From: an uncultured Synechococcaceae cyanobacterium
Lineage (GTDB): Bacteria > Cyanobacteriota > Cyanobacteriia > PCC-6307 > Cyanobiaceae
Reading direction: 5' to 3'
DNA: 64,000 nt
Assembly: GCA_902634405.1 (NCBI GenBank)
Contig: CACPJY010000002.1
Coordinates: 1-64,000 of the forward strand
Within the stretch, counting starts at the first letter, position 1, and each line of letters opens with the position of its first letter. Below the pieces are notes generated by a model, which saw only the letters and a list, made by a program, of their open reading frames with translations, searched no databases and was not told the DNA's origin. Below, piece by piece: positions 12,800 through 19,298 of this stretch. Position numbers and translations under genes: made by a program.

Positions 12800-12931
12800 G
12801 GCTGGCTTTTAGGAGAACCTTCAACAGCATTTGCCCATAAATGAGCCAAGTGTTTTGGCTTTTCGGCCTTGATATTGCTTCTTTCGAATCAGTTCTTGGG
12901 AGCCTTTGCCACTCCTTCTAATCGTTGCCAT
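12785..12931 (-). pseudogene. Tyrosine recombinase gene remnant (5' end only)
   Basis: Reading leftwards from an ATG at 12931, the peptide MATIRRSGKG, then LIRKKQYQGRKAKT, matches the first 30 residues of the intact integrase at 18994 (MATIRRSGKG, LIRKKQYKGPKAKT). It then breaks frame; the next frame holds LWANAVEGS, matching LWANAVESS of the intact protein. Nothing after about residue 50 is present. This is the stump of a second integrase gene, in the same orientation and the same position relative to a tRNA-Thr as the intact one. Confidence 0.85.
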
Positions 12932-12996
12932 TTCTCTTGAATTGCATCAGGTCAGATGCATCAACTAAGACTGATTAGGAGAGTAAAGTGGACTAA

Positions 12997-13014
12997 AAAG
13001 TGGACGTCCACTTT
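12997..13014. promoter_or_regulatory. 18-bp perfect palindrome between integrase stump and tRNA-Thr
   Basis: AAAGTGGACGTCCACTTT, preceded by a further AGTGGAC. On the minus strand it lies just after tRNA-Thr and is followed by more T, so it could be the tRNA terminator. It could equally be an arm-type or operator site of the recombinase. An identical copy is at 19059-19076. Confidence 0.5.
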
Positions 13015-13074
13015 CTGTCTTTTAGAACCTCTGGTGCCTTGAGATACTTTTCCCTGGAGGAGGTTGAGGACTAA

Positions 13075-13146
<72 letters not shown>

Positions 13147-13170
13147 ATGTAGAAGGTGGGCCGGGTTGGA

Positions 13171-16741: not shown

Positions 16742-16909
16742 ATGGACAAAAAAACCCTTATTCGTCTTGCTCAACCTGCTGCTACTTTTGCACTTGCCCT
16801 ATCAATAATTTCCATACCACTTATCGCACATGCAGGAATTGAGAGTGCCATTCGTTATCATACTGAGGGTACCGCATTAAGGGTCTATCACTTGAATTCC
16901 TGTAATTAA
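16742..16909 (+). CDS. Secreted micropeptide, family member 1 (55 residues)
   Basis: MDKKTLIRLAQPAATF begins a classic signal peptide ending LIAHA. The mature part would be about 23 residues (GIESAIRYHTEGTALRVY... ending SCN), with a single Cys. It is paralogous to the peptide at 17122 in start, signal and length. The two genes share their leader sequence. It may be a secreted signalling or antimicrobial peptide, but nothing in the sequence proves it. Confidence 0.65.
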   Translation: MDKKTLIRLAQPAATFALALSIISIPLIAHAGIESAIRYHTEGTALRVYHLNSCN

Positions 16910-17121: not shown

Positions 17122-17283
17122 ATGGACAAAGAAACCCTTATCAGGTTGGCAACTCCTGCCTCTATTTTTGTATTAGCACTTTCGATATTTAGTGTCCCGC
17201 TAATTAGTAAGGCAGAATTTGGTAGTTATTACGATGGGACTCCACGTTATCCAATCCATATCAAATGCGTTGGTGGTTGTTAA
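17122..17283 (+). CDS. Secreted micropeptide, family member 2 (53 residues)
   Basis: MDKETLIRLATPASIF starts a signal peptide ending LISKA. The predicted mature peptide of about 22 residues (EFGSYYDGTPRYPIH... CVGGC) has two Cys that could form a ring. It is a tandem paralog of the gene at 16742 with a shared leader. The mature parts differ far more than the signal parts, a pattern seen in peptide families under diversifying selection. Confidence 0.65.
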   Translation: MDKETLIRLATPASIFVLALSIFSVPLISKAEFGSYYDGTPRYPIHIKCVGGC

Positions 17284-17390: not shown

Positions 17391-17588
17391 GTCACCTCAA
17401 AAAAGCGGAGAGGGTTGCCTTCGGTTTGGGTTCATCTGAGCAGGTCAGAGAAGATAGGAGAACAATGCCTACTACACGACCTGATTTTGTGATAACTTAA
17501 AAGCATTTGTATCACTATTAAAAAGTATTTGGCGTGTAATACATATTGCGATGGTGTGATTAGGTTGTGATAACTACTTGGCAAATAA

Positions 17589-17816
17589 ATGAAAACTTCC
17601 AACTTTTTAGTTGTTGCTGCTCTTTCTGTTAGTGGATTTATAGGTTTTGCACCTTTTGCTAACGCTGGTCCTTATTCACCTGGTTATTACCAAAACGATA
17701 GTCCTTATTCACCTGGATATGTTCAGCAAGATAGTCCCTATTCTCCTGGATATGTCCAAGATGACAGTCCCTATTCTCCTGGGTATGTACAGGACAAGTC
17801 GGTTTTCGGTTTGTAA
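17589..17816 (+). CDS. Secreted protein with four 11-residue SPYSPGYVQ repeats
   Basis: 75 residues. Signal peptide 1-26 (FAPFANA), then four tandem 11-residue units (27-70): GPYSPGYYQND, SPYSPGYVQQD, SPYSPGYVQDD, SPYSPGYVQDK. Then comes the short tail SVFGL. The mature part is almost all repeat and rich in Pro, Tyr, Ser and Gly, like structural wall or adhesive proteins. It is encoded between TGTGATAA-type motifs (17495, 17567, 17845, 17855) that could be operators. No known family is apparent. Confidence 0.75.
   Translation: MKTSNFLVVAALSVSGFIGFAPFANAGPYSPGYYQNDSPYSPGYVQQDSPYSPGYVQDDSPYSPGYVQDKSVFGL
17667..17798 (+). repeat. Four 33-base coding tandem repeats
   Basis: Each unit encodes one 11-residue SPYSPGY-type repeat. 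Synonymous differences between units (CCTTATTCACCTGG against CCCTATTCTCCTGG) show that the protein repeat, not just the DNA, is conserved. Confidence 0.85.
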
Positions 17817-18013
17817 GTCTGATAACTCTGTACCCCGACTGTGATAATGGTGTGATAATTATCTCTTCTTTTTAGTGCTTCAAATAACTTGCTATAACTG
17901 ACTTCTAAAAAAGGTTTGTATTACACATCTAAAAGGTCTGTATTAATTTCTGAATTCAGTCCAAAAATCTCACAGATTTGAAAGCTGGTTTAAGGATATA
18001 GAAGAAAGACTCA

Positions 18014-18994
18014 TCACCCCCCATACCCCAAGGAGTAATGGCTATAGCGCATCAACATTCTTAGATCTTTATGACCACTAACTTCTGATATCTCTAGAGC
18101 ATTCATACCTTCAGTCCACATCTTGCTAATGGCGATGTGGCGCAGATCATGGAATCTAAGTTGATTTAAACCAACAGTTTTTCTGGCTCGATCAAACCCA
18201 TGCCGAGCACAACCATGGCTCAAAGGAATGACTTGTCGGTGCTCTTTTGGGAATTGTTTGAGGAGTTCAACTGCTTGTGGTGATAGTGGGACTAAGCGCT
18301 CACTTCGTTGTAAGCCTTGAGCTGCACAATCTTTTCTTGTTAGGCGAACAAGATTTCGATCAAGATCCAGGTCATCCCATTTGATCGAGAGAAGTTCAGA
18401 ACGTCGCATTCCAGTAACTAAGGCTAATTGTGTTAATCGCAGATGGTTTTGATTTTTAGATTGGGCTAATTGCTGCAGTAAATCCTGTTCTTGTTTCTTG
18501 GTGAGGTGAGGAATTCTGGCGTCATTGGTGCCCCGAACTTTCAGTTCTCGTGCGGGATTGGATTGGATCAGGCAACCTTGTTCATCTTTGGCCCAATCCA
18601 GCAGAACTCGCAAGATCCTGAGTTCTCTCATGATCGTGTTGGGCTTTACTTTTAGCAGGCGTTCATCTCGCCACAGAGCAAAATGCCGGATGGAAAGTTC
18701 ACTGAGATCAACTCCTCCGATCCAGCTGTTGGCCATTGCTCTTAATGGATATTGCTCGTTATGTCCACTGCGATGTTCTTGCAGTGGCCCAACAATGAAT
18801 AGATCGATTGCTTCTTTGAGAGTTTGCGGTGGCGGTTGATCTAATTGGGCTGGTCTTTTAAGAGAACTTTCAACAGCATTTGCCCATAACAAAGCTTGGT
18901 TTTTAGAACTAAATGTTTTGGCTTTTGGTCCTTTATATTGCTTCTTTCGAATTAAGGCTTGCCAGCCTTTCCCGCTCCTTCTAATCGTTGCCAT
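18014..18994 (-). CDS. Tyrosine recombinase (integrase) of the tRNA-Thr element
   Basis: 326 residues. An N-terminal arm-binding-like part (MATIRRSGKGWQALIRKKQY) is followed by a SAM-like core-binding domain (about 60-150) and a catalytic domain. Catalytic residues read as Arg197 (GMRRSELL), a Lys near 221 (LTRKD), His282/Arg285 (FHDLRH), His308 (SGHKD) and Tyr317 (MRYSHY). All five are present, so it should be active. It starts 142 bases from tRNA-Thr, at the right end of a segment bounded by two identical tRNA-Thr genes, matching tRNA-targeting integrative elements of picocyanobacteria (tycheposons). A broken relative is at 12785-12931. Confidence 0.95.
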   Translation of the reverse strand: MATIRRSGKGWQALIRKKQYKGPKAKTFSSKNQALLWANAVESSLKRPAQLDQPPPQTLKEAIDLFIVGPLQEHRSGHNEQYPLRAMANSWIGGVDLSELSIRHFALWRDERLLKVKPNTIMRELRILRVLLDWAKDEQGCLIQSNPARELKVRGTNDARIPHLTKKQEQDLLQQLAQSKNQNHLRLTQLALVTGMRRSELLSIKWDDLDLDRNLVRLTRKDCAAQGLQRSERLVPLSPQAVELLKQFPKEHRQVIPLSHGCARHGFDRARKTVGLNQLRFHDLRHIAISKMWTEGMNALEISEVSGHKDLRMLMRYSHYSLGYGG

Positions 18995-19058
18995 TTCTTG
19001 AATTGCATCAGGTCAGATGCATCAAGCAAGAGTGATCAGCAGAGCAAAAGTGGACTAA

Positions 19059-19076
19059 AAAGTGGACGTCCACTTT
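19059..19076. promoter_or_regulatory. 18-bp palindrome upstream of the intact integrase
   Basis: AAAGTGGACGTCCACTTT with an extra AGTGGAC at 19049-19055, between integrase start and tRNA-Thr. It is a candidate recombinase arm site or operator, or the tRNA-Thr terminator (on the minus strand it is followed by T). Confidence 0.5.
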
Positions 19077-19135
19077 CTATCTTTTAGAACCTCTGGTGCC
19101 TTGAGATCCCTTCGCTTGGTCGAGGCCTGGGCTAA

Positions 19136-19207
<72 letters not shown>

Positions 19208-19216
19208 TTGTGGAGG

Positions 19217-19298
19217 TGGGCCGGGTTGGATTTGAACCAACGTAGGCAGAGCCAGCGGATTTACAGTCCGCCCCCATTAACCACTCGGGCACCGACCC
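19217..19298 (-). tRNA. tRNA-Tyr (GTA)
   Basis: 82 bases on the minus strand: acceptor GGGTCGG/CCGGCCC, A73, anticodon GTA in CTGTAAA, a long variable arm as expected for bacterial tRNA-Tyr, T-arm GTTGGTTCAAATCCAAC. CCA not encoded. Its 3' tip (19217-19230) is duplicated at 13157-13170. Confidence 0.97.

Follow-up and report, generated by a model that had tools for sequence, protein, structure and literature searches.

A putative one-gene mobile cassette encoding a predicted secreted repeat protein in a relative of Prochlorococcus

The window analyzed here, a 64,000-nucleotide stretch of an uncultured Synechococcaceae cyanobacterium (GCA_902634405.1, contig CACPJY010000002.1, positions 1 to 64,000), contains a small open reading frame of 75 codons, whose product reads MKTSNFLVVAALSVSGFIGFAPFANA followed by GPYSPGYYQNDSPYSPGYVQQDSPYSPGYVQDDSPYSPGYVQDKSVFGL. 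The first-pass annotation had described this gene as encoding a signal peptide followed by four 11-residue SPYSPGYVQ-type units differing at synonymous positions, and that observation was confirmed. Tandem Repeats Finder gave a 33-bp period with 3.9 copies and 82% matches at 17661-17788, the highest-scoring array in the window. Units 2-4 are near-perfect; whereas unit 1 (NAGPYSPGYYQ) is degenerate, and its first two residues probably belong to the signal peptide, the A-x-A cleavage site having been judged by eye without a predictor. Synonymous divergence exceeded non-synonymous divergence, with pS 0.62 versus pN 0.13 over all unit pairs and 0.67 versus 0.06 for units 2-4, although the sites are few and the pairs are not independent. 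The mature part is 49 aa and 5.4 kDa, with a pI of about 4.05, 9 Tyr, 8 Pro, 8 Ser and no Cys. The gene lies in a mobile element, as had been claimed, but there are two nested elements, an insertion of about 480 bp within a tRNA-Thr element of about 6.06 kb. The features of both are collected in Table 1.

Table 1. Features of the cassette and of the surrounding tRNA-Thr element (window coordinates)
Position	Strand	Feature	Basis
17464-17946	+	Miniature integrase-less cassette; insertion proper 17467-17946, AAT ambiguous at the junctions	Joined flanks match uninterrupted sites in genomes G010 and G209; ends shared with cassettes in other genomes
17464-17484	+	Left core, AATGCCTACTACACGACCTGA, like the last 21 bp of argJ of other Prochlorococcus	Same core at argJ 3' ends and at cassette borders in many genomes
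17488-17573	+	Left arm with three direct repeats: TGTGATAA at 17488, TGTGATTA at 17555, TGTGATAA at 17566 (+25, +92, +103 from core start)	Same offsets in other cassettes; +26, +94, +105 in the integrase-bearing G192 and G248 elements
17589-17816	+	Cargo gene: 75-aa predicted secreted SPYSPGYVQ repeat protein	Translation, repeat analysis, substitution counts
17589-17666	+	Signal peptide coding part (26 codons), shared with the G013, G310, G092, G119 and, more weakly, G377 cargo genes	Leader scores far above shuffles; DNA alignment
17661-17792	+	Four 33-bp (11-codon) repeat units	Repeat analysis, substitution counts
17818-17858	+	Right arm repeats: TCTGATAA at 17818, TGTGATAA at 17840, TGTGATAA at 17851 (spacing 22 and 11)	Same spacing in other cassettes and in the two integrase elements
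17915-17946	+	Right terminus TTTGTATTACACATCTAAAAGGTCTGTATTAA	Found in 10 of 400 family genomes; reversed control 0
13074-13147	-	tRNA-Thr copy at the left border of the outer element	
18014-18994	-	Tyrosine integrase of the outer tRNA-Thr element (different type from the argJ integrases)	Phage_integrase E 7.6e-27; phrog_1 E 3.5e-56
19136-19207	-	tRNA-Thr copy at the right border of the outer element	

To ask whether the protein has relatives, we searched databases and 400 genomes of the same family (designated here by G numbers; G013, G377 and G072 are identified in named records as Prochlorococcus single-cell genomes AG-409-L18, AG-402-N10 and AG-363-P19). No Pfam or NCBIfam model reached its cut-off, PHROGs gave no match, and searches of phage records and IMG/VR viral contigs yielded nothing convincing. 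Among the family genomes there was one strong relative, in G310 (E 4e-15), with six NPMGQGYIQDH-type units behind the same leader, and a weak one in G221 with two GYVQD units behind another leader. The 11-residue unit (x-[SNA]-P-x-x-x-G-Y-[VI]-Q) recurs in these two genomes, and the view that the protein stands alone is not supported. In a shuffle test the mature parts of the window and G310 proteins were clearly related (131 versus 31 +/- 6 for shuffled sequences). The mature parts of G013, G092, G119 and G051 formed a second class, and G377, with DPDLNWKA repeats, stood apart. In contrast, the leaders were similar in most pairs, and the window leader scored above nearly all shuffles against each of the others. 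Thus, one leader type precedes at least three mature types.

The interpretation offered by the first-pass annotation was only partly supported. The predicted export signal, selection on the protein repeat, the mobile-element context and the absence of a recognized family all held; surface modification or defence against phage or grazers was not examined, and the cassette itself, the more surprising feature, had been missed. AlphaFold gave no confident fold with three sequences (mean pLDDT 48), and therefore no fold search was run. We have no direct evidence on function; our best guess, held only tentatively, is a short, disordered Tyr/Pro-rich envelope or surface peptide whose export is known by prediction only. 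Alternatively, the cargo peptides might be bacteriocin-like secreted antagonists or immunity factors rather than envelope components, as a constant leader with unrelated mature parts and mobile carriage would fit rapidly varied effectors. We consider this doubtful, as no modification, transport or immunity gene accompanies the gene in the cassette and there is no match to known families.

DNA upstream of the gene was 77-87% identical in G013, G377, G310, G092 and G119. In the window, G013, G377 and G092 this block begins with about the last 21 bp of argJ. In G013, G310 and G377 argJ itself lies directly upstream; whereas in the window and G092 only the 21-bp core is left. The argJ gene of the window's own genome lies on another contig, has a different 3' end, and is only 54% identical as protein to that of G013, while the cassette block is 87% identical as DNA, as expected for horizontal transfer. 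We first considered that the conserved upstream block was simply a promoter, but this was dropped as the sole explanation once the right end and arm spacing described below proved to be shared with integrase elements. A promoter scan gave nothing above chance and nothing upstream of the gene. The possibility that the argJ segment was a random capture scar was also dropped, because the same core recurs at many cassette borders.

A second conserved block lies 3' of the gene and ends with the right terminus at 17946. The ten genomes containing this terminus carry it mostly in cassettes near argJ, some in tandem arrays, and usually with zero or one gene. It also bounds cassettes with unrelated genes in G072, G227 and G051, and one of 215 bp without a gene, directly behind argJ and with both arms, in G056 (locus L049, 3901-4115). 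Over the 125-nt right arms the window was identical to G013 at 112, to G377 at 111 and to G072 at 112 positions, although G072 carries an unrelated gene. When the flanks of the window insertion were joined across 17466/17947, they aligned without a break to G010 (92% over 72 bp) and G209 (82% over 88 bp), demonstrating that the 480 bp is a clean insertion. These empty sites are homologous intergenic segments, which were not shown to lie in the same tRNA-Thr element, and as the sample holds one genome per species, polymorphism within a species was not seen. No viral contig holding the right end, the left block or the arm pattern was found.

Both arms carry three short direct repeats of the TGTGATAA type. 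In the window, G013 and G377 these lie at the left offsets given in Table 1 and at -129, -107 and -96 from the right end. The other cassettes follow the same layout with small shifts; some sites are missing or degenerate in G056, G072, G227 and G092, and the left offsets for G119 depend on the start chosen for it. To identify candidate helpers we examined the integrases next to argJ. Divergent tyrosine integrases of one type (represented by locus L032; phrog_1, E 9e-30) lie directly 3' of argJ in six genomes, G028, G353, G349, G192, G312 and G248. Two of these elements, in G192 (6.7 kb) and G248 (7.5 kb), have the same repeat word, nearly the same left-arm geometry and the same 22/11 spacing on the right; other argJ elements have a similar layout with other repeat words. 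A search of 350 genomes with the right-arm spacing pattern alone, using neither argJ nor the gene, returned eight genomes, comprising six cassettes and these two elements, with none for the control. No argJ-type integrase was found in the window's own genome, which is 78% complete, and the two elements with the matching repeat word are in larger, Synechococcus-like genomes, not in the nearest relatives.

These results bear on whether an ordinary chromosomal gene that sat behind argJ was carried, with its own conserved promoter and a scrap of argJ, into the tRNA-Thr element by homologous or illegitimate recombination, with no site-specific cassette involved. The position of the gene directly behind argJ in G013, G310 and G377 is consistent with this, and the upstream block could also hold a promoter. 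However, the right end is equally conserved and bounds unrelated genes, the arm spacing is shared with integrase elements, the empty site shows a clean insertion, and the argJ match stops at the 21-bp core in the window and G092; we therefore regard this explanation as very unlikely.

Several cores can follow one another behind argJ, as in G013, G028 and the single-contig genome G051, which has four cassettes; cassettes are in tandem in G013 and G051. Most hold one gene, encoding small exported proteins, membrane proteins or an outer-membrane-barrel-like protein. The G310 cassette is also bounded by a core on both sides. In G028 (locus L046, 124-17695) two full-size elements lie in tandem behind argJ, each with an L032-type integrase, and the second also carries a small serine recombinase and what look like type I restriction-modification genes. 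Because the cassettes are small, with one gene or none, and occur in tandem arrays, we asked whether they might be integron gene cassettes or transposon-derived MITEs. Neither the RYYYAAC nor the GTTRRRY attC motif was present on either strand of the cassette, and by eye the first 60 bases and the reverse complement of the last 60 did not align as inverted repeats; the ends are instead asymmetric, with core plus arm sites like phage-type att sites, and no IntI is implicated. Both identities were rejected as highly improbable, although the cassettes work like integron cassettes in being single genes in arrays behind a fixed platform with the recombinase supplied in trans.

The closest known elements are cis-mobilizable elements (CIMEs; PMC5704250), which are flanked by att sites of a tyrosine integrase, have no recombination genes of their own, and are found at the 3' end of a conserved gene in tandem with related elements. 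The window cassette retains both ends, with the geometry of the integrase elements, and contains only one ORF of 45 aa or more and no integrase or transfer gene; mobilization by a related element's integrase was not assayed. The cassettes differ from CIMEs in being about 0.2-1.3 kb with zero or one gene, close to minimal size, instead of decayed kilobase-scale islands, and in recurring in the same compact form in many genomes and also at secondary sites. The cassette could be a dead relic, a decayed CIME derived from a full-size argJ element that lost its integrase and was left with arms and one gene, no longer mobile. The lack of a helper in the same genome, the integrase remnants near argJ in G013 and a right core in the window that is not argJ-like fit this view. 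It nevertheless seems unlikely, given the same compact form, size and arm geometry in about ten genomes from several genera, the secondary-site insertions in the window and G092, and the existence of an empty site.

We conclude, with fairly high confidence, that the repeat-protein gene is the single cargo of a miniature, integrase-less integrative cassette. The sequences themselves demonstrate the insertion, the target without it, the ends shared with cassettes elsewhere, the argJ 3'-end core, and arm repeats whose spacing matches full-size argJ elements encoding a tyrosine integrase. The mechanism, in contrast, is deduced: we propose that an argJ-type integrase supplied by another element binds the arm repeats and inserts the cassette at argJ, the primary site, or, as here, at a secondary site sharing AAT, so that one-gene cassettes spread between picocyanobacteria; neither excision, circles nor transfer was observed. 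We also infer that the cargo may be expressed from the position where the full-size element reads its integrase gene, as the cargo ATG is at +126 in the window and the int ATG is at +136 and +148 in the two G028 elements; expression was not measured. Since several cassettes keep the left arm and signal peptide but have unrelated mature parts, the mature part seems to be swapped or quickly replaced behind a constant export module. A bolder possibility, which we hold only tentatively, is that picocyanobacteria run an integron-like cassette system without integrons, in which the argJ 3' end is a landing platform where argJ-type integrases stack and exchange one-gene mini-cassettes, including a class with a constant att-arm plus signal-peptide module in front of interchangeable mature parts, so that a repertoire of secreted peptides would be reshuffled by site-specific recombination.

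The cassette offers a concrete carrier for single-gene transfer in Prochlorococcus, an extremely abundant ocean phototroph whose gene gain through islands is only partly explained. Its ends are short and recognizable, so that large sets of single-cell genomes and metagenomes can be scanned for cassettes and their cargo, and the constant leader with variable mature parts suggests that exported peptides are a favoured cargo, a testable lead on how these cells vary their envelope. In the open literature searched, no paper treated argJ together with an attachment site and integrase, although a description of argJ-sited elements in the original tycheposon paper cannot be excluded. Tycheposons, which are tyrosine-recombinase elements of picocyanobacteria, are described as 4-200 kb at tRNA genes (Hackl et al. 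2023, cited through PMC10872708 and PMC10187409). The cassette, at 0.48 kb, has no recombinase, and its core is an argJ 3' end, not a tRNA. A further picocyanobacterial integrase element (PMC10187409) shares divergent tyrosine integrases poorly seen by Pfam, and the small serine recombinase and restriction-modification genes of a G028 argJ element are a further point of likeness; that family is reported beside tRNA-Phe or tRNA-Cys, the integrases described here are beside argJ, and the two were not compared in sequence.

The outer element, with its tRNA-Thr borders and own integrase, does resemble a tycheposon. About 360 bp including tRNA-Thr and the 5' end of an integrase gene are duplicated at both of its ends (12806-13164 and 18855-19225), and a remnant of a second integrase lies beyond the left tRNA, suggesting that two tRNA-Thr elements integrated in tandem and the left one decayed. 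The constant-leader, variable-tail logic of the cassette genes was seen elsewhere as well. Two tiny proteins encoded at 16742-16909 and 17122-17283 (+) share a leader (MDKETLIRLA.PA...ALALSI) but have unrelated tails; a 140-bp direct repeat at 72% covers them, and G209 and G010 hold further copies with again other tails. In genomes of one genus of the sample (g35; loci L007-L018), another leader family (MKGLKRVVLGSAVGGLLGAAAFFAVDG) precedes several different short mature parts, sometimes in several copies per genome.
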